The notes below the pieces were generated by a model. The model was not told the DNA's origin. It made no database searches and saw only the letters and a program-made list of their open reading frames with translations. From Pseudomonadota bacterium (lineage in GTDB: Bacteria; Pseudomonadota; Gammaproteobacteria; Acidiferrobacterales; UBA6901): a stretch of DNA of 64,000 bases. The stretch lies in assembly GCA_021819085.1 (NCBI GenBank), contig JAKASJ010000014.1, forward strand, positions 18,442 through 82,441, written 5' to 3'. This document shows positions 43,620-59,793 of this stretch, piece by piece; the stretch's first letter is position 1, and each line of letters begins with the position of its first letter. Both the position numbers and the translations under genes were made by a program.

Positions 43620-44135
43620 ATGAGCGGTTCCGATACTGAGTGCTGGTTTCTCGTTTACTCCAAGCCGCGCCAGGAAGAGACGGCGAAACAGAATCTGGAG
43701 CGTCAGGGGTACACCGTATATTTGCCGCGCGGGGTCCAAAGCCGGCGGCGTGCCGGAAAGCGCGTCACGGTAGTGGATCCGCTGTTTCCGCGTTACCTCT
43801 TCGTCCGACTGAACAGACAGTCGGACAACTGGGCGCCGATCCGATCTACGATCGGGGTCGCCGCACTGGTGCGCTTCGGATTGGAGCCGGCGCGCGTGCC
43901 CGATACGCTGGTTGCCTTGCTGCGTTCGCACGAAACCGCATCCGGAGTGCACGAGTGGACGCTTGCTCCGCTGCGCACTGGTCAGACGGTGCGGGTCGCA
44001 GAGGGCGCATTCGCGGGGTACCACGGGATCTTTCTTGCCCGCACGAGCCGCGAGCGGGTGACCGTGCTGCTCGACATCCTGGGGCGCCCGGTACGTGCGC
44101 AGCTAACGGCAGATCAGGTGGATCCGGCGGATTAG
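43620..44135 (+). CDS. rfaH: NusG paralog RfaH-like transcription antiterminator
   Basis: WFLVYSKPRQEETAKQNLERQGYTVYLPRG...VVDPLFPRYLFVRLN; 171 aa. Not in a secE-nusG context and close to a polysaccharide locus carrying an ops-like site. Confidence 0.85.
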   Translation: MSGSDTECWFLVYSKPRQEETAKQNLERQGYTVYLPRGVQSRRRAGKRVTVVDPLFPRYLFVRLNRQSDNWAPIRSTIGVAALVRFGLEPARVPDTLVALLRSHETASGVHEWTLAPLRTGQTVRVAEGAFAGYHGIFLARTSRERVTVLLDILGRPVRAQLTADQVDPAD

Positions 44136-44845: not shown

Positions 44846-46312
44846 ATGATGAAGACGGTTCGGACTGCGGTGGTCATGCGCACGCTGCGCGAACAGCCGC
44901 TCTGGCGAATGCTTGCCGCCACCAAGGCGCCTGCCATCATTGCATTGCTTCAACAGCTGCTGCTTGACAGCGACCGTAGTCTGCCGGGATCGATTCTGCA
45001 TGAGCGTCTGGCACGCGAGCTGAGCCAGCTGAGAGCCGCGGGCGAGGACCTGCCGGAAACTGCGCGGCAGTATGTGGCCCAATGGCTGGCTCAGGGCTGG
45101 CTGACCCGGAGGCTTCCGCCAGGAGCGAACGAAGAGGAGTATGAGCTTTCTGTGGAGGCTGTAAGCGCGATTCGCTTCGTCAACGGCATACTCAGACCAC
45201 GCACGACGGCCACGGAGAGCCGTCTATCGCTGGTCATCCAGCAGCTGGCGCAACTCGCGGAAGAAACCAACCCCAACCCCACGGCACGCATCCAGGCGCT
45301 CAGGGACGAGCGCGAGCATATCGACCAGGCAATCTCCGAAGCCGAACGTAACGGTGTCCAGGTACTTTCGTCAGATCGTGCGCTGGAACGGGCGCATGAA
45401 ATCATCGGACTTGCCGAAGAACTGACCAGTGATTTTCGCAGCGTGCGCGATCAGTTCGATCGCCTCAACCGGAGTCTTAGGCACAGCCTAATGGAGAACG
45501 ATGGCAGTCGCGCCGAGGTGCTCGAGCAGCTTTTTGCGGGCGTAGACCTTGTAGCCGAAAGCGAAGCCGGACGGACGTTCAATGCCTTCTGGCGCCTGCT
45601 TACCGACAGTGAGCAGGCCGCAACTCTCGTACAGTCGCTTGATGAGATCACGAATCGCTCCTTCGCGAGACAGCTCGAGAGCCGGGAGCGCAGATTTCTG
45701 CTGAACCTGACGTCGACTCTGCTCGATGAAGGCGGCGGTGTGCATGATGTGTTTCAAAACTTTGCGAGAAGCCTCAAGAGATTCGTGCAGAGTCGGGAGT
45801 TTCAGGAGCAGCGGCGCCTGCATTACCTTCTGAAAGAAGCGACCCAGGCAGCGTTGTCGGCAAAGGAATGCGTACGCGCTAACCAGCCGACAGGTTACGC
45901 GCTTATGCTCACGAGCAGCCCCGTGCGGTCTGTTTCGCAGTGGGTACTTTACGACCCGGCGCAGCGGGTGACGGATTCGTCGATGGCGTCCGCAGATCCC
46001 CCACAGCTCGGCATCGAGACGGTCGCCGAGCTGCTGCGGCAATCAGAAATCGATTTCCGCACCCTGCGCCGGCATGTTGTCACGGTGCTGGAGGGCCAGT
46101 CGCAGGCTTCCATCTCGGAAGTGCTTGCGGCATTCCCAGCCGAGCAGGGGCTGGGCAGCGTGGTCGGTTATGTAGCACTGGGCGCCCGGTACGGAGAAGT
46201 GACACCGCACCTCGAAATTGTTGCATGGGAGGGTAGCGATGGGATTTGCCGCCGCGCTCGCATACCCGCCATTTTCTTTATCCAAGAGAGACTGCATGAA
46301 CTCATCGCATGA
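44846..46312 (+). CDS. jetA: Wadjet type I JetA (DUF3375, kleisin-like, MksF-like)
   Basis: 488 aa DUF3375-like; first of four overlapping genes in JetA-B-C-D order. Confidence 0.88.
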   Translation: MMKTVRTAVVMRTLREQPLWRMLAATKAPAIIALLQQLLLDSDRSLPGSILHERLARELSQLRAAGEDLPETARQYVAQWLAQGWLTRRLPPGANEEEYELSVEAVSAIRFVNGILRPRTTATESRLSLVIQQLAQLAEETNPNPTARIQALRDEREHIDQAISEAERNGVQVLSSDRALERAHEIIGLAEELTSDFRSVRDQFDRLNRSLRHSLMENDGSRAEVLEQLFAGVDLVAESEAGRTFNAFWRLLTDSEQAATLVQSLDEITNRSFARQLESRERRFLLNLTSTLLDEGGGVHDVFQNFARSLKRFVQSREFQEQRRLHYLLKEATQAALSAKECVRANQPTGYALMLTSSPVRSVSQWVLYDPAQRVTDSSMASADPPQLGIETVAELLRQSEIDFRTLRRHVVTVLEGQSQASISEVLAAFPAEQGLGSVVGYVALGARYGEVTPHLEIVAWEGSDGICRRARIPAIFFIQERLHELIA

Positions 46313-47021
46313 ACTGCCGGAGAGTGAAGAACCGCACTTGCCGGCAGCACTGCCGGTCAATGATGCGCCGGAGGGCGGAACCTTCAATGGCGATACGGGC
46401 CAGCTGGCGGTGGAATCGCGGCGTGTGCTTGTGCAGCTTCTGCTGGGTCCGGCGCTTGATTTTCGGCGCCAGTCCAGGCTTTGGCCGGTGCTGCTGCGCG
46501 ATGAGGAAGTCATCCGTTCCCGGCTGCACGAGCTTTTTCTTGAACTGGTCGTTGACCGGGAACAGCAGATCGCGTTTACGCGGCAGGTCGCATCGGAACA
46601 TCTTGATGTCCCCGTTCTTCTTCGAAAAGCACCGCTTACCTTTCTCGAGTCCGCGTTGCTGCTGCATCTGCGCAGCCGCCTGACGCAGGCCGATGCGCAG
46701 GGGGATCGAGCGGTGGTGTCGCTGCAGGAGATGCTGGAGCATCTGAGCGTCTTCGAGCGCGAGAAAAATCCGGACCGCGCCCGCTTCGAGCGGCAGATGA
46801 CCAATGCGGTGGAGAAGGCCAAGAAACTGAGTCTGCTTCAGCGCATTCGGGGCGACGACGAGCGCTTTGAGGTGTCACCGACCCTCAAGCTGCTTTTTCC
46901 GGCAGAGGAGATACAGGCGCTTGCGCGGATCTATTCCGAATTAGCCGCTTCCGGAAATGGAGCCGGACACGAGATGTCTGACGATGAACACGGCGACGCT
47001 GAAGCGGGGGTCATCGAATGA
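46296..47021 (+). CDS. jetB: Wadjet type I JetB (DUF4194, kite-like, MksE-like)
   Basis: MNSSHELPESEEPH...; LHLRSRLTQADAQGDRAVVSLQEMLEHLSVFE; overlaps jetA and jetC. ORF-track start 46218 is likely too far upstream. Confidence 0.87.
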   Translation: MNSSHELPESEEPHLPAALPVNDAPEGGTFNGDTGQLAVESRRVLVQLLLGPALDFRRQSRLWPVLLRDEEVIRSRLHELFLELVVDREQQIAFTRQVASEHLDVPVLLRKAPLTFLESALLLHLRSRLTQADAQGDRAVVSLQEMLEHLSVFEREKNPDRARFERQMTNAVEKAKKLSLLQRIRGDDERFEVSPTLKLLFPAEEIQALARIYSELAASGNGAGHEMSDDEHGDAEAGVIE

Positions 47022-50000
47022 ACGACTCCACCCAATCCGGTCTGGTATTCGGGGTTCAGGACCAGTTCCGTCTCACGCGTGTCCAGCTTTTCAACTGGGG
47101 CACGTTCTGTAATGTCTTCGATTTTTCGATCCCCGCGGACGGCTATCTGATCGTCGGCCCGTCAGGATCGGGGAAATCCACGCTGCTGGATGCCCATGCA
47201 GCCCTGCTGACACCGCCGAAGTGGGTGGATTTCAATGTGGCCGCCCGCGAAGCGGAGCGGCACGGCAAGGACCGCAATCTGATGACCTACATCCGCGGCG
47301 CCTGGGCGCAGCAGACCGGTGACAGCGGCGAATACGTGTCGCAGTACTTGCGGGGTGACACGACCTGGTCGGCCATTTCCGAAACCTATCGAAACGGTCT
47401 AGGACGTTGCGTGACTCTGGCTCAGGTGCTCTGGGTAAGAGGCAAGTCGACCGCGGCAGCGGACGCGCGGCGGCTCTATCTGGTGTTGGGGCGCGAATTC
47501 GAGATCCGGGAGCTGGAGTTTTTCCCGAAGAATGACTTCGACGTCCGGCGTTTCAAGAGTGAGTTGCCTGATGCGCACGTACACCACGAGTTCAGTGCCT
47601 ATCAGGAGCGATTTCGCAGGGAGCTGGGCATCGAGAACGAACGGGCGCTGCGGCTTCTGCACAAGACCCAGTCGGCCAAGAACCTGGGGGACTTGAACAC
47701 CTTCATGCGGGATTTCATGCTTGATGCGCCCGCGACATTCGAGATCGCTGAGCGGTTGGTCGAGGAATTCGGCGAACTCAATGCTGCTCACCAGGCGGTG
47801 GTCGCCGCCCGCCAGCAAATCGACACGCTCAGGCCGGCACGGGATGAGTATCTCGAACTGGAAGGCAGTGGGCGTGATCGCAACGGCCTGCAGGCATTAC
47901 TGGCGGCGGTCGATCACTATCGTGAACACCGCCGCAGGATCCTGCTGGGCGAACGTCGGGCTGTGCTGCAGGTCGAGCTCGAGGGTGTTCGTCAGGAGAC
48001 CCGGCTTTTGATGGACGCCACGGATCGCGAGTTTCGCAAACTGAACGAGCTGCAACGGCAAAAGCTCGGCATGGATGCTGGTATCGTCGAGCAGCTGCAG
48101 CAGGAACTCCGCGTGTCCGAGGAGGAGAAGCCCGAGCGTATCCGCAGGCGCAGCCAGGCCGAGTCGGCCTGCCGGGCGATGGGCTGGGTGATGCCGGAGA
48201 CGACGGCGGGATTCGTGGAGCGGGTGGAGGCCGCCAGGGCGCAGGTGCTCAAGGCACACGAATACCAGGAACAGAGCGAGCGGCACAAGGACGGCGTCAA
48301 GGAACAGCTGCGCGTAGCTGAACAAGAATTTGCATCGACGATGTCCGAAGTGCGGGCGCTCGAGCGCAAGCGTTCGAATCTGGACGAAGCGCTGCAGACG
48401 CTACGCGAACGCATGGCGGCGGATCTGGGCCTAGCCGAGGAGAAACTGCCGTTTGTCGGAGAACTGCTCGAGGTCAAGGCGGAGGAATCCGCCTGGCAGG
48501 GCGCGATCGAACGCGTGCTCGGCGGGTTTGCGCGTTCCCTGCTCGTCGATGATCGCAACTATGCGGCCGTGTCGGCGTACATCAACGAGCGTCACTTCGG
48601 CCGGCGGCTGGCATATTTCCGTGTCCTGCCGCAGGCGCCGGTGGGCCGTACGCCAGGCCCGAGTTCACTTGCGCGAAAGCTCAGCATTGCGCCAGGGCCG
48701 TACGCCGACTGGCTGCGGGAGGAGATCAAGACCCATTTCGATTTTGAATGTGCCGGCACTCTTCAGGCGTTCCGTGCGGCGCCACGGGCCGTCACCCTCG
48801 AGGGCCAGGTCAAGCACAGCGCCACCCGCCACGAAAAGAACGACCGCGAACGCATCGACGACCGCAGCCGCTGGGTGCTGGGTTTCGACAACCAGGCGAA
48901 GCTTGCCCTCTACCGGGACAAGGCTGGCGAACTGGGCAGTCAGGTCGCCGGGCTGCGCGCGGCGCTCGCGCGGTTGCGGGAAGACGAGGCCAACCAGCAA
49001 ACCGCGATGTTGCACTGCCAGACGCTTTCGAATTTTTCCTGGAACGACGTGGATGTCGGTTCCCTGCTGGCGCGCATCGCCGACCTTCACAAGCGTCTGT
49101 CTGCGGAACTGGCGGTACGTCCGGAGCTGGCGCGCGTGGATGAACTTATCCAGACGCAGGCAGACCGCCATCGGGAGGCGGCGGAGCGGCACCAAGCCGA
49201 GGAAATCCGCGGGGGCGGCATCGCACGCGACATTGGCCGGCTGGAGGAGAAGCTTTCGGAGATCATCCGCCTGTGGCCCCAGACAGCACAGGAACCCGCG
49301 TTCCGGGAGGCGCTCGACCAGCGTTTTTCCGGCACTGGACGTGCGCTTACCCTGGAGAATATCGATGAGGCGACCCGCGTGGTGGAGCGCCGTATCAACG
49401 AGGAGGTGCGTGCCCTGGACAGCCGGATGGCCGAATTGCGCAATTCCATCACCCGGCGGTTTGCAGACTTCAACCGCTCTTGGCCTGCTGAAGCTGGCGG
49501 GCTGGACCCCGTCATGGAGAGCAGCGAAGACTACTTCGCTAAGCTCCGCAGACTGGAGACCGACGGCCTGCCCCGCTTCGAGGAGCGCTTTCTTGCGTTG
49601 TTGCGGGAACAGAGTGACCAGAACCTGACGCTGCTTTCAACCAAGCTCGACCAGGAGCGCACTGACATCAAGGGACGCATGGAGCTAGTGAACGAGAGTC
49701 TGCTGGGCGCACCCTTCAATCCGGGAACCCATCTGGTGATCGAGACGGGCGACAGACGTCTGGAGGAGGTCCGGCAGTTTCGTGCGGACCTCAAGGGTGC
49801 CCTTAGCCATTCGTTCAGTTCTGAACCACAACTTGCCGAGCAGCGGTTTGTTGCGCTGGCGGCGCTGGTCAAACGCCTTGCCAGTCACGAGACGGCGGAC
49901 CGAAACTGGCGGGCGCTGGTGCTCGACGTGCGTCTGCACGTTGAATTCGTTGCGCGCGAGATCGACGAGGACGGTATCGAGGTCGAGGTGTACCGCAGTG

Positions 50001-50377
50001 GTGCGGGCAAATCCGGAGGTCAACGGCAGAAGCTCGCCGCCACCTGCCTTGCAGCCGCGCTGCGCTACCAGCTTGGTGGCCAGGATCGGGCGATACCGGG
50101 TTTCTCGACCGTCATGCTCGATGAAGCTTTCGACAAGGCAGATGCGGAATTCACCGCGATGGCCATGAATATCTTCCGGACCTTCGGTTTCCAGATGGTG
50201 GTGGCGACGCCCCTGAAATCGGTCATGACGCTGGAGCCCTTTATCGGCGGCGCCTGCTTCGTGCATATCCGGGACCGCAAGATGTCGGCGGTCATTCCAA
50301 TCGATTATGACGGCGAGGCGCGGCGGTTGAAACTGTCCCCGCATGAACTGCATGGCGAAGAAACTGCTGCACCCTGA
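47018..50377 (+). CDS. jetC: Wadjet type I JetC (SMC/MukB-like ATPase)
   Basis: Walker A GPSGSGKSTLLDA; long coiled coils; hinge-like VGELLEVKAEESAWQGAIERVLGGFARSLLVDD; signature KSGGQRQKLAATC; Walker B STVMLDEAFDKAD. Confidence 0.94.
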   Translation: MNDSTQSGLVFGVQDQFRLTRVQLFNWGTFCNVFDFSIPADGYLIVGPSGSGKSTLLDAHAALLTPPKWVDFNVAAREAERHGKDRNLMTYIRGAWAQQTGDSGEYVSQYLRGDTTWSAISETYRNGLGRCVTLAQVLWVRGKSTAAADARRLYLVLGREFEIRELEFFPKNDFDVRRFKSELPDAHVHHEFSAYQERFRRELGIENERALRLLHKTQSAKNLGDLNTFMRDFMLDAPATFEIAERLVEEFGELNAAHQAVVAARQQIDTLRPARDEYLELEGSGRDRNGLQALLAAVDHYREHRRRILLGERRAVLQVELEGVRQETRLLMDATDREFRKLNELQRQKLGMDAGIVEQLQQELRVSEEEKPERIRRRSQAESACRAMGWVMPETTAGFVERVEAARAQVLKAHEYQEQSERHKDGVKEQLRVAEQEFASTMSEVRALERKRSNLDEALQTLRERMAADLGLAEEKLPFVGELLEVKAEESAWQGAIERVLGGFARSLLVDDRNYAAVSAYINERHFGRRLAYFRVLPQAPVGRTPGPSSLARKLSIAPGPYADWLREEIKTHFDFECAGTLQAFRAAPRAVTLEGQVKHSATRHEKNDRERIDDRSRWVLGFDNQAKLALYRDKAGELGSQVAGLRAALARLREDEANQQTAMLHCQTLSNFSWNDVDVGSLLARIADLHKRLSAELAVRPELARVDELIQTQADRHREAAERHQAEEIRGGGIARDIGRLEEKLSEIIRLWPQTAQEPAFREALDQRFSGTGRALTLENIDEATRVVERRINEEVRALDSRMAELRNSITRRFADFNRSWPAEAGGLDPVMESSEDYFAKLRRLETDGLPRFEERFLALLREQSDQNLTLLSTKLDQERTDIKGRMELVNESLLGAPFNPGTHLVIETGDRRLEEVRQFRADLKGALSHSFSSEPQLAEQRFVALAALVKRLASHETADRNWRALVLDVRLHVEFVAREIDEDGIEVEVYRSGAGKSGGQRQKLAATCLAAALRYQLGGQDRAIPGFSTVMLDEAFDKADAEFTAMAMNIFRTFGFQMVVATPLKSVMTLEPFIGGACFVHIRDRKMSAVIPIDYDGEARRLKLSPHELHGEETAAP

Positions 50378-51545
50378 CGCGGTACGTGATTTTCTCACCA
50401 GACGTTACGAAAACCAGCATCAGAGCTGGCTCGCCGGTGGCGGTATCTGGCCGCTCAGCATCTCTTTGGGTGCGCCGACGGAGAAGGCGGTTGCCGACAA
50501 TCCGGGTAGTGTGCGTGATTGGGTGAATGCGTGGTCGCTGTGGAGCGGGCCGGGGGAGGTCGTGTGGGCGTCGCGCCATTGGCCCCGTCTGGGCAGCCAG
50601 CGCCTTCCGGTGTGTTTCGCGGTTTCTTCGCCGGAGGCGGTCGCCGTCCTCGTTGGACAGTCGGCACGCTGGTTGCGCGCATCGGAACGCTTCCGGCAGC
50701 TGATTGCGCGCTGGCCTGCCCTGGCGCGAGGCGCAGTGCTGGCGTCAAAATTTTGTGCGCTGGCGGAGTATTCGTCGGAAGATTTCGAGCGGCTGGTTTT
50801 GCTGCTCGGCTGGCTGGAAATCCACCCGGCATCGAACCTCTACCTCCGGCAGCTGCCGGTACACGGGATCGACACCAAGTGGGTTGGACAGCGATCGGGG
50901 ATAGTGGCGGACTTGGCGCGCGCGGTACTGGGCGCACCGGATGGAAGTGATTTCCACGCTGCCTGCGGTCTGCGTAAACCGCCTGATCGCATGCGGATGC
51001 GGGTTCTGTGTCCGGATCTGCGTAAGCTCATGGGCGGACTGCGTGATATCGAGGCGCCCGTCGATGAGCTCGCCGATCTGCCGTTTGCACCCGCGGTTTG
51101 TCTCGTTGTCGAGAATCTTGAGAGTGGACTCGCGCTTCCGGATCTGCCTGCGGCGGTCTGCATCATGAAGCTCGGCAACGCGGTTTCGATGCTCGGCGGT
51201 CTGCCTTGGATGCAGACTGCGAAGACTGTCTACTGGGGGGACATCGATACCCACGGTTTTGCCATCCTGGACCGTGCGCGCCGAGCTTTGCCACGGTTAC
51301 AGTCTGTTCTCATGGATGAGGCAACGCTGCTGATGCACAGGACGCTCTGCGGGACCGAAACTGTCCAGTGCCCGGATATCGAATTTCCCCGTCTGCAATA
51401 CCATGAGCGGCTGGTGTACGAGGGGCTGCGCTCGGGGGCGTGGGGACGACAGCTGCGCCTCGAGCAGGAACGGTTGCCGTGGGCGTTTGTGCTGGCGGCG
51501 CTAAAGGCCGCACTGGACCCAGCGGAAAAAATGGCACGGAGGTGA
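50352..51545 (+). CDS. jetD: Wadjet type I JetD (DUF3322 + DUF2220, Toprim nuclease); alternative start 50343
   Basis: AKKLLHPDAVRDFLTRRYENQHQSWLAGGGIWPLSISLGAPTE; Toprim acidic residues LVVENLES and VYWGDIDTHGFAIL; overlaps the jetC 3' end. Confidence 0.92.
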   Translation: MAKKLLHPDAVRDFLTRRYENQHQSWLAGGGIWPLSISLGAPTEKAVADNPGSVRDWVNAWSLWSGPGEVVWASRHWPRLGSQRLPVCFAVSSPEAVAVLVGQSARWLRASERFRQLIARWPALARGAVLASKFCALAEYSSEDFERLVLLLGWLEIHPASNLYLRQLPVHGIDTKWVGQRSGIVADLARAVLGAPDGSDFHAACGLRKPPDRMRMRVLCPDLRKLMGGLRDIEAPVDELADLPFAPAVCLVVENLESGLALPDLPAAVCIMKLGNAVSMLGGLPWMQTAKTVYWGDIDTHGFAILDRARRALPRLQSVLMDEATLLMHRTLCGTETVQCPDIEFPRLQYHERLVYEGLRSGAWGRQLRLEQERLPWAFVLAALKAALDPAEKMARR

Positions 51546-51907: not shown

Positions 51908-51937
51908 TTGACCGAATGAATTAGACATCAGTATAGT
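51908..51937 (+). promoter_or_regulatory. Putative sigma70-like promoter TTGACC-N18-TATAGT
   Basis: -35 TTGACC 51908-51913, -10 TATAGT 51932-51937, upstream of the wHTH gene. Confidence 0.55.
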
Positions 51938-51954
51938 GTTCATTAAATGAACAC
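51936..51954. promoter_or_regulatory. Palindromic candidate operator GTGTTCAT-TAA-ATGAACAC overlapping the -10 edge, TSS and start codon
   Basis: Perfect 8-bp inverted repeat with 3-nt spacer. Confidence 0.55.
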
Positions 51955-52573
51955 GGACCGTGACCGGGAGGATGCCTTGACTCTGGAGATTCTGGACGTG
52001 GTCCAGAAACAGAGCGACGTCAGCCAGCGGCACCTGGCAAGGCATCTGGGTGTTGCGCTGGGGCTGGCGAATTCCTACCTCAAACGCTGTGTGCGCAAGG
52101 GCCTCATCAAGATCACCGAGGCGCCGGCCAACCGCTATCTATATTACCTCACGCCCAAGGGGTTCGCGGAAAAGAGCCGTCTCACCGCCCAGTACCTGAG
52201 TTACTCCTTTTCCTTTTACCGACAGGCCAGCGAGTCGTGCATGCGGGTGTTCGACCACTGCCGCGACCAGGGGTGGCGGCGACTGCTGCTGTGCGGTATT
52301 TCGGATCTGGCGGAGGTCGCTACGCTGCATGCCGTGGATAGAGGGATCGTCATCGTCGGTTTCTACGATCCACACAGTGAGCGGCGGCGGTATCTCGACC
52401 GGCCGGTCTGGCGAGAGTTCGCGTTGGCGGGTCCGTATGACGCCTGTGTGGTGACGGATTTTCTGGCACCGCAGTTGACTTGCGACCATCTGACGGACCT
52501 TGTCGACAGCGAGCGGGTGCTGATCCCGGATGTGCTGGGCTTGACGCCGTACGACGTACACAGAACGCTTTAG
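51947..52573 (+). CDS. Winged-helix (MarR-like) transcriptional regulator with C-terminal nucleotide-binding-like domain
   Basis: LEILDVVQKQSDVSQRHLARHLGVALGLANSYLKRCVRKGLIKI wHTH; C-term LLCGISDLAEVATLHAVDRGIVIVGFYDP. Confidence 0.8.
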   Translation: MNTDRDREDALTLEILDVVQKQSDVSQRHLARHLGVALGLANSYLKRCVRKGLIKITEAPANRYLYYLTPKGFAEKSRLTAQYLSYSFSFYRQASESCMRVFDHCRDQGWRRLLLCGISDLAEVATLHAVDRGIVIVGFYDPHSERRRYLDRPVWREFALAGPYDACVVTDFLAPQLTCDHLTDLVDSERVLIPDVLGLTPYDVHRTL

Positions 52574-52643
52574 GCGGTCCGGGTGACCGGGCCGGCAGGG
52601 TGGTTGGCGAAGGAACCGAACCTGTGCGGAGCACGCTCTGCAT

Positions 52644-52656
52644 GGCGGTAGCGTGC
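52644..52656 (+). promoter_or_regulatory. Candidate ops (operon polarity suppressor) element for RfaH recruitment
   Basis: GGCGGTAGCGTGC at 52644-52656 matches the E. coli-type ops sequence as known; sense strand, about 308 nt upstream of manC. Confidence 0.75.
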
Positions 52657-52963: not shown

Positions 52964-54397
52964 ATGACCATTCATCCAGTAATTCTTTCCGGCGGTTCGG
53001 GGACACGGCTTTGGCCGTTGTCGCGCGAGCATTATCCCAAGCAATTGCTGCCGTTGATGCAGAAGCTGTCGTTGCTGCAGGAGACCGCCGTGCGCCTGGA
53101 TGGGTTTGATGACGTGGCCGACCCATTGTTCATCTGCAATGAGGAGCACCGGTTTCTGGTGGCTGAACAGATTCGCCGGATTGGCAAGACCGCAGCCCGG
53201 ATCGTGCTCGAGCCCGTCGGACGCAATACCGCACCGGCCATGACGCTTGCGGCGCTCGCGCTGGTGAATTCTGGACCGGACACGGTGATGCTGGTGATGC
53301 CGGCCGATCATGTCATCCGGGATGTCGCTGCCTTCCGGCAGGCCGTTGCGCGGGGCGCCGGGCTGGCGCAAGACGGTCATCTGGTCACCTTCGGCATCGT
53401 TCCTAATGCGCCCGAGACCGGGTTCGGATATATCCGCCGGGCGGAACCCGTCACGACGAAGGGGTCCGATAACGGTGCATCTGCCTTCCGTGTCGACTGC
53501 TTCGTCGAGAAGCCCGATATCGTCACGGCTCACCGGTACGTAGAGTCCGGCGAGTACTTCTGGAACAGCGGCATTTTCATGGCACGCGCAAAGGTCTGGC
53601 TGGAAGAAATCGGGCGGTACCATCCGGATATCGAGCAGGCGTGCGTGCGGGCTTATGAACAAGGCAAAGCGGACGCGGATTTTTTTCGCGTTGGCAGGGC
53701 GGACTTTACCGGTTGCCCAAGCGTTTCCATCGACTACGCGGTCATGGAAAAGACCGATCGCGCTGTGGTGGTACCCCTGGATGCCGGTTGGTCCGATGTT
53801 GGCGCCTGGTCGGCATTGTGGGAAGTTTCTCCGCATGATGCCCAGGGAAACGTCATCCAGGGTGACGTCGAGACCTATGCCACCCGCAACGCGCTGGTGA
53901 TCGCCCAGCACCGCCTGGTTGCGGCAATCGGGCTTGAGGACATGATTGTCGTGGAAACGGCCGATGCGGTGCTGGTGGCGCACAAGGACCGGGCGCAGGA
54001 CGTGAAGGAGATTGTCAGCCGTTTGAAGGAAAAGAATCGGGGGGAATACCGGGCGCACCGCAAGGTCTATCGTCCCTGGGGTTCATACGAAGGTGTCGAC
54101 GCCGGACTGCGGTTCCAGGTCAAACGCATCATCGTCAATCCCGGCGCCGCTCTGTCCCTGCAGATGCATCATCATCGGGCCGAGCACTGGATCGTGGTGA
54201 CCGGTACGGCCCGGGTGACGCGGGGCGAGGAAGTGTTTCTCATTACCGAAAATCAGTCCACGTATATTCCGATCGGCACCCGGCATCGTCTTGAAAATCC
54301 TGGAACCATACCGCTGGAGATGATCGAAGTGCAGTCCGGCGCCTATCTGGGCGAGGACGACATCGTCCGGTTCGAAGATCTCTATAACCGGGGCTGA
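52964..54397 (+). CDS. manC: Mannose-1-phosphate guanylyltransferase / mannose-6-phosphate isomerase
   Basis: [42 protein letters not shown]-term cupin [20 protein letters not shown]. Confidence 0.95.
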
Positions 54398-54402
54398 ATC
54401 GC

Positions 54403-55041
54403 ATGCAGAACAAAAACAACGTGGTCTGGCACCATGCCACGGTGACCCGTAGCCGGCGCGAAGGCATCAACGGACATCGCAGTGTCGTACTCTGGTTTAC
54501 CGGTCTATCGGGCGCCGGGAAATCGACGCTCGCCCACGCGGTGGAAGAGCATCTTCACCAGAAAGGCTGCCGCACTTTCGTGTTCGACGGCGACAACGTG
54601 CGTCATGGTCTGTGTGCGGATCTGGGATTTTCCGCAGCCGACCGCAGCGAGAACATCCGCCGCATCGGACAGATGGCAAAGCTCTTTGTCGACGCCGGAG
54701 TGATCGCGCTTACCGCGTTCATTTCGCCCTTCCGGGCAGACCGGCAGCGCGTGCGTGAAATCGTGGGAGAGTCCGATTTTCTGGAAATCTACTGCCGGTG
54801 TTCGCTCGAGGAGTGCGAACGGCGTGATGTGAAAGGGCTTTATGCCAAGGCGCGCGCCGGGGTGATCCGGGAATTTACCGGTGTTTCCTCGCCGTATGAA
54901 GAGCCGCTTGCTCCCGATCTGGTGATCGACACCGAGCGGCAAAGCCTCGAAGAGGCGGTGGAACGTGTGTGTGGGTTGTTGGCCGAAAGGGGTCTGATTG
55001 CCCGCAGAGCAGGCCAGGGCGCCGGTCATGCCGGAAGTTGA
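54403..55041 (+). CDS. cysC: Adenylyl-sulfate (APS) kinase
   Basis: [59 protein letters not shown]. Confidence 0.95.
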
Positions 55042-56460: not shown

Positions 56461-57276
56461 ATGACTGATATTGTCGAAAACAGCCGGACCAGCACGGGCG
56501 CCATCAGCAGCCTTTCAACGTTGTGGCGCTATCGCGATCTGGTGCGTAATCTGGTGGCGAAGGAAATCAAGGTCCGTTACATGGGGGCCGCACTGGGATT
56601 TATCTGGTCACTGGTCAACCCGCTTGTTGTGACCTTGATGTATCTCGTCATTTTCACCTACGTCTTTCCGTCGATGCAGCCGCATTATGCGCTGTTCATG
56701 GTCACGGGTATCGTGCATTGGACTCTGTTCAACCAGGTTACCAGCCAGAGTTGCGAGATCCTTGTCCAGAATGCAGGTCTGTTGAAGAAGATCTATTTTC
56801 CGCGGCTGCTGGTACCGCTGTCGAGCGTACTCGTGAATCTGACTCTGTGGTCAGCGGCGCTCGCGGTGTATCTGGTCTTCTTTCCGCTGCTCGGCGGGCA
56901 CTTCAGCTGGGTCTTGCTCACCTATCCTTTTTACCTTCTACTTTTCTTTCTGTTTGTCTGGGGAGTGGGCATGATCCTGGCGACCCTGTATGTCGACTTC
57001 CGGGACATAAAACATCTGGTGGAGGTTTCCCTGCAGGTTCTTTTCTGGGCAACTCCGATCATCTATCAGCTGGACCGGGTTCCAGTACAGTTCCGGCACG
57101 TCCTCCTTCTCAGTCCACTGGCGGAATTCACTGTCGTGTTCCAGTCCATTTTCTATGATAATCGTGTTCCATCGCTGACAATCACCATCGCATTCATGAT
57201 GTGGACAATGGCGGTGGTAATCGTGGGGTTGTGGCTATTCAACAAGCGTGTTCCGGAACTTGTGGAAAGGCTTTGA
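56461..57276 (+). CDS. ABC-2 type polysaccharide transporter permease (Wzm/KpsM-like)
   Basis: MTDIVENSRTSTGAISSLSTLWRYRDLVRNLVAKEIKVRYMGAALGFIWSLVNPL; ORF-track start is upstream of the likely ATG 56461. Confidence 0.9.
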   Translation: MTDIVENSRTSTGAISSLSTLWRYRDLVRNLVAKEIKVRYMGAALGFIWSLVNPLVVTLMYLVIFTYVFPSMQPHYALFMVTGIVHWTLFNQVTSQSCEILVQNAGLLKKIYFPRLLVPLSSVLVNLTLWSAALAVYLVFFPLLGGHFSWVLLTYPFYLLLFFLFVWGVGMILATLYVDFRDIKHLVEVSLQVLFWATPIIYQLDRVPVQFRHVLLLSPLAEFTVVFQSIFYDNRVPSLTITIAFMMWTMAVVIVGLWLFNKRVPELVERL

Positions 57277-57297: not shown

Positions 57298-58035
57298 ATG
57301 AAAGACGATGTCATCGTGGTGGACCAGGTTTCGAAGTCCTTTAAGCTGCACCACAATCGTGTGGAAAGTCTCAAGGGGCGTTTTGTCGGCATTTTCAAGC
57401 ACCGCTGGCGTCAGAAAACCGAATCCTTTCATGCGTTAGAAAATGTTTCTTTCCGGGTCCGGCGCGGTGATTCTCTGGCGCTTATGGGTTCGAACGGATC
57501 CGGTAAAAGCACGTTGTTGCAGATCATTGCCGGAATTCTGAGACCGAGCAACGGGTGGGTGCAGGTGCAGGGACGGGTGGCGCCGTTGATCGAATTGGGA
57601 GTGGGGTTTCATCCTGAGTTGACAGGCGAAGAGAACATCTACCTGAATGCCAGCCTCTATGGATTCCGGAACCGGGAGATCCGTGCCCGCTTCTCGAAGA
57701 TCGTGGAATTCTCGGAGCTGAGTCATTTTATCGACACGCCGGTTAAGAACTACTCATCGGGCATGTACATGCGCCTCGGTTTTTCTATCGCGGTTCATCT
57801 CGACCCAGAGGTTCTCCTTGCGGACGAGATTCTAGCTGTTGGCGATGCTGCGTTTCAGGACAAATGTCACGCGAAGGTCGCCGACATGCAGCAGGAAGGC
57901 ATGACATTGATTCTGGTATCCCATAACTTCGATCAGGTATCAAAATACTGTACCAAATTTGTGCGTTTGGATAAGGGTCAGGTGGTGGAGACTGGGACAT
58001 TAGGTAAACAGAATCAGGGCTGGGCGGCAAAGTAG
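57298..58035 (+). CDS. Polysaccharide ABC transporter ATP-binding protein (Wzt/KpsT-like), probably C-terminally truncated
   Basis: GSNGSGKSTLLQIIAGIL; YSSGMYMRLGFSIAVHLDPEVLLADEILAVGD; no C-terminal carbohydrate-binding domain. Confidence 0.9.
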   Translation: MKDDVIVVDQVSKSFKLHHNRVESLKGRFVGIFKHRWRQKTESFHALENVSFRVRRGDSLALMGSNGSGKSTLLQIIAGILRPSNGWVQVQGRVAPLIELGVGFHPELTGEENIYLNASLYGFRNREIRARFSKIVEFSELSHFIDTPVKNYSSGMYMRLGFSIAVHLDPEVLLADEILAVGDAAFQDKCHAKVADMQQEGMTLILVSHNFDQVSKYCTKFVRLDKGQVVETGTLGKQNQGWAAK

Positions 58036-58328: not shown

Positions 58329-59245
58329 ATGCAAAAGAGGGCAGCAATCTACGCTCGAGTCTCCTCGCAACAGCAACGCGAGGAAAAAACGATTGCGAGT
58401 CAGACGGCGGCGCTGATCGAGTTCGCGAAGACACACGAGTTGGAAGTGCCCAAAGAGTGGGTGTTCGAAGACGCAGGATTTAGCGGCGCCACGCTCGAGC
58501 GGCCGGGCCTCGAGCGGGTGCGCGATCTTGCTGCGGAAGGCCAAATCCAGGTGGTATTGGCCTATTCACCGGATCGCCTGAGCCGCAAATACGCCTACCA
58601 GATCCTGCTGATGGAAGAGCTTGCCAAGCAGGGAGTCGAGACCCTGTTCGTCAACGCACCGCAAGGCACGAGCGCCGAGGATCAGCTACTGGTTCAGTTC
58701 CAGGGCATGATCGCCGAATACGAGCGCGCGCAGATCCTGGAGGGCTCCCGGCGCGGCAAACGGCATCGGGCCCGCTCCGGAGAAGTAAGTGTGTTGAGTG
58801 GTGCGCCCTATGGATATCGGTATATCCGAAAGAGCGATGAAGCGCCTGCCTCGTATGTCGTCCTCGACGCCGAGGCCCGTGTCGTGCAGCAGGTCTATGA
58901 GCAGTACACCGTCGAAGGGCTCAGCATCGGCGAGATCGCGCGTCGGCTCAATGCCGAAGGTATCCCCACGCGCAAGCAAAGCGCCCGCTGGGAGCGTTCG
59001 GTCGTGTGGGCCATGCTGCGCAATCCCGCCTATCGGGGCGCGGCCGGTTTCGGCAAGACCCGTGGCGCTGGCCGCCTTCGCGTCACGCGCGCGCTGCGCC
59101 GGCGCGGTGGCATCGTGTCCTGCAACAGCGTCGGCCACGAGCGTCCGCCGGAGGAGTGGATCGAAATCCCGGTCCCTGCGCTTGTGAGCGAGGAGCGCTT
59201 CGCTCACGCGCAAGAGCTGCTTCACGACAATAAAATACGCTCGCG
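58329..59245 (+). pseudogene. Large serine recombinase (resolvase + Recombinase domains), 3' end lost; ORF continues artefactually to 59501
   Basis: AAIYARVSSQQQREEKTIASQ...AYSPDRLSRKYAYQ; LSIGEIARRLNAEGIPTRKQSARWERSVVWAMLRNPAYRG. Recombinase-like sequence stops near HDNKIRSRR and no zinc-ribbon/coiled-coil region follows. Confidence 0.78.
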
Positions 59246-59291
59246 GCGCACCGGAATCCTGCCGTGGGCGAAGGTCTGTTGTGTTGTCCGA

Positions 59292-59443
59292 GAGCGTAGG
59301 GCGGGAAATCCGCACGCTGCGTTCGATGAGGGAGATGTGGAAACGATACTATGGCAAGATTATTTGGGCACCGCCAGACGAAAATGGGTGGCAACAGACA
59401 AACCGACCCTACAGTCACCGTGCCACATCTCAACTCTGCCTAT
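59292..59443 (+). ncRNA. 3' fragment of a group II intron (domain V and domain VI-like stem)
   Basis: GAGCGTAGGGCGGGAAATCCGCACGCTGCGTTC (59292-59324) resembles the ~34-nt domain V (GAGC triad, GAAA loop, AC bulge, GUUC end), followed by GATGAGGGA and a perfect 9-bp stem gagatgtgg (59332-59340) / ccacatctc (59423-59431), then CTCTGCCTAT. Confidence 0.6.
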
Positions 59444-59793
59444 AACTTTGCGACGATCGACCATTTTCTCTTGGCGTTTCCTTGAATGCGATTTCGTTTA
59501 ACTAAGCCTGAGATGCAGGTATGCACGTCGCTGGAGCTGGGATGTGCCGCCCAAAAGTCATTCATGTTCTGATGGCAAGTCGAACGGGGTCAATATCGTA
59601 GATTTCGTTACCGGCGAGGGCGGGGCCATCAGCACAACGGGCCGGCATTAAACGCATTTCGATCGTATCTTTGCGTTGCACTAAGGGGGCGTATTCTTCC
59701 TCGCTCACGCGATGCCGAATAGCGATGCCGAGCGGCCCTATCCGGTGCTTACCGATCGATAAAGCGGTGCGCTACAATCTACTGAAAATCCAA

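Follow-up and report, generated by a model that had tools for sequence, protein, structure and literature searches.

A conserved hairpin and ops element as a candidate RfaH-loading signal ahead of a polysaccharide operon in the Acidiferrobacterales

A 64,000-nt stretch of gammaproteobacterial DNA (hereafter the window, meaning the whole stretch analysed) carries an ops-like element ahead of a run of polysaccharide genes, and comparison with related genomes makes it very probable that this element is a working ops and the downstream part of a composite leader signal, made up of an RNA hairpin, a 1-nt spacer and ops, through which RfaH is loaded before the polysaccharide operon. The initial annotation had reported an exact 13-nt ops-like element on the sense strand ahead of the polysaccharide genes, and the letters at 52644-52656 of the forward strand indeed read GGCGGTAGCGTGC. 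That account was nonetheless incomplete, as it missed a covarying hairpin, a MarR-type gene with its conserved promoter and a second site in the genome. No mapping of ops for this group was found in the openly accessible literature; the subscription literature may hold one.

With both strands searched, the site at 52644-52656 is the sole exact match to GGCGGTAGCNTG in the window, the remaining matches having two mismatches each and occurring at chance frequency. The ops core GGCGGTAGCGTG, assigned by sequence match and conservation, spans 52644-52655 on the forward strand, which is the non-template strand of the operon, and includes the bases G4, G5, A7 and G8; the expected pause position, U11, is 52654. 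The element follows a marR-type gene, which stops at 52573, and precedes manC, which starts at 52964; 307 nt separate the end of the motif from the manC start, and 8508 nt separate the rfaH stop (44135) from the motif. It has a predicted promoter upstream, at 51908, and would belong to the leader of a long operon with the order promoter, marR, ops and manC onward.

The sigma-70 promoter TTGACC-N18-TATAGT (51908-51937, forward strand), predicted by consensus, is the only promoter-like site in the leader. Directly behind it, the palindrome GTTCATTAAATGAAC (51938-51952, forward strand) covers the marR start codon and is a probable MarR operator; palindromes of the form GTTCATnnnATGAAC recur over the marR start codon in relatives, and the promoter is conserved there as well. 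The gene itself (51947-52573, forward strand) encodes a winged-helix protein related to the MarR_EPS family TIGR04176, which it matches at 65.9 bits against a curated cut-off of 88, so that it is a relative and no equivalog. We infer that the transcript opens with marR, leaderless and self-regulated, and reaches ops after some 700 nt. The genes after ops, all on the same strand, begin with manC for mannose-1-phosphate guanylyltransferase (52964-54397) and a cysC-like adenylylsulfate kinase gene (54403-55041), and include a Wzm-like ABC export permease (56479-57276) and a Wzt-like ABC export ATPase (57298-58035). A serine-recombinase-like open reading frame (58329-59501) also lies on the same strand inside this run of polysaccharide genes; judged from its translation only, it probably marks the insertion of a mobile element into the predicted RfaH operon. 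Between rfaH and marR, positions 44846-51545 hold a complete type I Wadjet defence system, JetABCD. The two genes are close neighbours in most relatives, and the gap between them seems to be a hot spot for insertions within this genus, since it is filled with other DNA in three further genomes (G002, G003 and G004).

What lifts the site above chance is that its position relative to rfaH is conserved across the order. The comparison set held 60 genomes, mostly of the order, of which 20 carry this rfaH; in one of these (G001) rfaH lies at a contig end and could not be scored. Each of the 19 that can be scored has an exact GGCGGTAGCGTG downstream of rfaH and on its strand, at a distance of up to 1.9 kb in 16 of the 19, against a chance expectation for the 12-mer of about 0.0009 per genome for 3 kb. 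The ops of the rfaH-bearing genomes stands directly ahead of a polysaccharide operon. The initial annotation had named a lack of conservation ahead of homologous loci and a random scatter of copies as findings that would count against it; the motif proved to be conserved at those loci, and exact copies are not scattered through the genomes. From the rfaH stop to ops the distance in the order is typically 700-1130 nt, falling to 50 nt in G018, and in the genus of the window it takes the values 1.9, 3.1, 8.5 and 21 kb, with other DNA between rfaH and marR. The common gene order is rfaH, marR, ops and polysaccharide genes, with marR, rfaH, ops found in G018 and in a betaproteobacterial locus (L018). 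The link between rfaH and ops extends to other gammaproteobacteria (L012, L013, L014), to that betaproteobacterium and to a Desulfobulbaceae record (L021). No GGCGGTAGCGTG occurs in the loci of four alphaproteobacterial rfaH-like genes (L016, L017, L019, L020), in whose proteins residue 10 is R and residue 23 is N or S.

Immediately before ops, the window can form an RNA hairpin (52625-52642, forward strand; -8.5 kcal/mol) with arms TGCGGAG (52625-52631) and CTCTGCA (52636-52642) and the loop CACG, and a single spacer base, T at 52643, separates its foot from ops. This arrangement is conserved as TGCGGA, a loop, TCTGCA, one nucleotide and then ops. In a MAFFT alignment of 20 elements, 93% of the paired positions are standard pairs at the true register, compared with 26-63% when the partner arm is slid, and the same alignment contains 12 double-change cells in the hairpin pairs; across many families the hairpin is kept by compensatory changes. 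A covariance model of hairpin plus ops finds matches in 63 of 369 genomes of the class at an E-value of 0.01, most of the top matches adjoin rfaH or marR homologs, and changes on both sides are seen in seven of the eight pairs among the 63 matches, a count that leans towards the model to which that alignment was fitted. Within the comparison set the model matches strongly in 19 of the 20 genomes with rfaH and in one of the 40 others (p 2e-13).

That one exception, G016, has five copies of GGCGGTAGCGTG and no rfaH match. The copy at the start of contig C92 is a full element with a sugar-epimerase-like gene behind it, and the rfaH of this genome therefore probably lies in an assembly gap; the other copies of G016 gave no match to the hairpin-ops model. 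At the level of the class, by a hand tally, exact ops occurs in 52 of 66 genomes with an RfaH above the cut-off versus 87 of 269 without (p 7e-12), and many of the sites lie within 3 kb of rfaH. At three loci, L143 (G183), L159 (G173) and L137 (G286), ops is found upstream of rfaH itself on the same strand, and in these genomes RfaH may act on its own operon.

At 57 linked sites the foot of the hairpin falls 0-2 nt before ops, with a mean of -6.8 kcal/mol at offset 1, whereas 40 control ops copies from genomes without an rfaH match average -1.6 kcal/mol and do not place a foot at 0-2 nt. The linked sites at class level were picked in part with the hairpin model; the subset found by the RfaH protein alone is unbiased, and there the foot lies at offsets 0-2 in 21 of 24 sites against 11 of the 40 control copies. 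In two small subsets from outside the order (five sites each), the hairpin position was not significant on its own. The energy test counts only hairpins present in the predicted minimum-energy fold and is conservative, because weak ones, including those of E. coli, usually receive zero. A reading of the structure as an intrinsic terminator was dropped, as none was found.

An inverted repeat before ops might instead be a DNA operator, bound by MarR or another protein, with no RNA structure involved. The MarR-type gene just upstream invites such a reading, and operators commonly consist of inverted repeats that are perfect or nearly so. At one hairpin position, however, G-U predominates, with 37 of the 47 sequences scored, and would count as a mismatch if the repeat were a DNA palindrome, which argues for RNA; moreover, the loop varies widely in length and the arms covary while the distance to ops stays fixed, and MarR more probably binds the separate palindrome at the start of marR. 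An operator at this position is for these reasons unlikely, and the RNA hairpin is the preferred reading.

The composite design recurs elsewhere in the genome of the window. A second hairpin-ops site, at G000:C74:39078-39112 on the reverse strand (within locus L122, G000:C74:36000-41219), consists of an 8-bp hairpin followed by TGCGGTAGCGTG, in which G1 of ops is changed to T. It lies between a gene for an XrtA glycosyltransferase (TIGR03013) and genes for an XrtA polysaccharide deacetylase and a FemAB protein (TIGR03006, TIGR03019), recurs in the same place in G003 and G004, and has a counterpart ahead of a similar deacetylase gene in G012. From its sequence and placement, it is a probable target of RfaH in trans.

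RfaH is the textbook fold-switching transcription factor, and in the E. coli protein E48, through the E48-R138 bridge, is needed for autoinhibition or locking, with the C-terminal domain in its alpha-helical form. The E. coli row of our alignment agrees with the PDB chain wherever the two were compared. The initial annotation had placed an RfaH-like gene 8.5 kb upstream of the motif, and the product of that gene (43620-44135, forward strand) passes the TIGR01955 cut-off, scoring 160.4 bits against 144.5. It keeps K10 and R23, has N for H20 and I for R73, so that it lacks the full set of E. coli contact residues, and carries D48 and R138. Among the ops-linked RfaH homologs in and near the order, T72 is kept, K10, R23 and Q24 are kept in nearly all, H20 is replaced by N, and R73, with few exceptions, by I, L or V; position 48 is variable in relatives. 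AlphaFold2 predicts a beta-barrel C-terminal domain for the window protein and for a second member with a similar alignment, in runs without an alpha-hairpin positive control. All 12 ops bases are invariant in the alignment despite the replacement of two of the four E. coli contact residues. In E. coli, K10, H20, R23 and R73 of RfaH contact ops, and the ops bases G4, G5, A7 and G8 matter for RfaH while being dispensable for pausing (PMC5995543). R73 is said by Wang et al. 2020 (PMC7593976) to have arisen late.

These features could also belong to an RfaH that has no use for ops, being constitutively active and loading in cis while it is made beside its target, with ops and hairpin left as relics or as a mere pause site. 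A 2026 preprint ties RfaH homologs with a beta C-terminal domain to ops-independent action in cis and calls such proteins ops-independent (PMC13015549); the usual adjacency of rfaH to its target operon, the lack of conservation of H20, R73 and E48, and the predicted beta fold all agree with that picture. Yet a relic would hardly retain 12 of 12 ops bases, including the RfaH-specific G4, G5, A7 and G8 (PMC5995543), nor would loading during synthesis sit easily with a second site in trans or with an rfaH up to 21 kb from ops in the genus of the window. We regard ops-independent loading as decidedly unlikely, and favour recognition of ops by the linked RfaH.

Very improbable, too, is a reading without RfaH, in which the hairpin-ops pause sets the timing of translation or of transcript processing behind marR: ops-like sequences do pause polymerases in the absence of RfaH (PMC7593976), but the near-perfect co-occurrence with rfaH in the order and the conservation of central bases that are dispensable for pausing (PMC5995543) both speak for a role of RfaH. 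Raw counts of the motif decide little. The genome-wide count that the initial annotation proposed as a check yielded six copies of GGCGGTAGCNTG versus four of the reversed control, and is uninformative as a test for that reason, neither supporting nor refuting the reading; exact GGCGGTAGCGTG occurs twice versus zero times for the reversed control. The other five GGCGGTAGCNTG copies all lie within open reading frames, sense or antisense, and none of the five matches the hairpin-ops model. A chance match, to which these counts at the level of the reversed control might point, has next to no likelihood and is already contradicted by position, strand, hairpin and downstream operon, which are conserved in 19 of 19 scorable genomes.

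From the sequences, their conservation, position and covariation, we infer a pause, RfaH binding, autoregulation by MarR and a role for the hairpin, which may be combined as follows. Polymerase would start at the MarR-controlled promoter (51908) and produce a leaderless marR message; shortly past the marR stop, the hairpin would be transcribed and polymerase would pause at U11 of ops (52654), where the foot of the hairpin stands 12 nt behind the RNA 3' end. Pause hairpins have a spacing of about 12 nt from the RNA 3' end. The hairpin would hold the complex in register, giving a longer pause, less backtracking or both, with the ops bubble staying exposed. RfaH from the linked gene would then bind the flipped-out ops bases in the non-template strand, replace NusG and keep Rho off, and the modified polymerase would continue through manC-cysC and the genes for export and nucleotide sugars, recruiting ribosomes; the second site of the same design would serve the XrtA polysaccharide operon in trans. 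The prediction of the initial annotation that the operon from manC onward is RfaH-dependent gains support from the sequence comparison in this form. Against it speak the 8.5 kb that part rfaH from ops in the window, the replacement of H20 and R73 and, less decisively, the variable position 48 and the predicted beta fold. The ops and RfaH steps are drawn from the E. coli mechanism (PMC5995543, PMC11001881). The part given to the hairpin is new and unproven, because the ops complex described in the literature functions with no RNA hairpin and is distinct from hairpin-stabilised pauses (PMC11001881). It is plausible, if somewhat short of probable, that outside enterobacteria RfaH uses a two-part signal of a hairpin at pause spacing plus ops, in which the hairpin is required, and that the RfaH proteins of these lineages recognise the invariant ops with another set of contacts, H20 and R73 being absent and the E. 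coli type of locking possibly so.

The signature of rfaH, marR, hairpin and ops predicts RfaH-controlled polysaccharide operons in many uncultured lineages, far outside E. coli. The ops sites of E. coli (rfaQ, rfb, wza) have the same 12-mer, likewise on the sense strand in the leader of polysaccharide operons and with an RfaH paralog present; here, by contrast, a MarR-type gene accompanies rfaH beside its target, ops comes after the stop of that marR gene, and the contact residues H20 and R73 have given way to others. The JUMPstart element reportedly goes back to Hobbs and Reeves in 1994. A stem-loop among JUMPstart elements was noted by Weinberg et al. 2010 (PMC2864571), and in JUMPstart (RF01707), as here, the stem-loop directly precedes ops. 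The window shares this JUMPstart-like architecture, which is not an Rfam family, with the foot of its stem-loop adjoining ops. A weaker hairpin of 5 bp, likewise ending 1 nt short of ops, can form in the rfb, rfaQ and wza leaders of E. coli K-12, and the JUMPstart stem-loop may be the E. coli form of the hairpin described here. The two differ in that there is no evident sequence likeness outside ops and the hairpin here is mostly longer and stronger. RF01707 scores 16.8 bits on the window, below its gathering score of 35, and at the gathering threshold matches none of the loci of 17 relatives. The nearest known system is the enterobacterial JUMPstart/ops (RF01707), of which the element is an unrecognised, sequence-divergent form below threshold.

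The his-type hairpin-stabilised pause also places the foot of its hairpin some 12 nt behind the 3' end of the paused RNA, but here the hairpin is combined with ops, whose paused complex differs from hairpin-stabilised ones (PMC11001881). A covarying hairpin at pause-hairpin distance is testable against a current model in which the cycle depends on nothing but the sequences of ops and RfaH (PMC11001881). By its described neighbourhood, the RfaH cluster CL4 of Wang et al. 2020 (PMC7593976) resembles the present group, rfaH adjoining an HTH gene and envelope polysaccharide genes; in the accessible part of that paper, CL4 is described by neighbourhood, with no ops or hairpin mapping seen. Finally, the monomorphic beta-RfaH homologs share with the window protein a cis location, missing ops-contact residues and a beta C-terminal domain in AlphaFold2, and are reported to be ops-independent (PMC13015549), whereas the ops here is invariant, a testable point given that the protein has lost two of the four contact residues.
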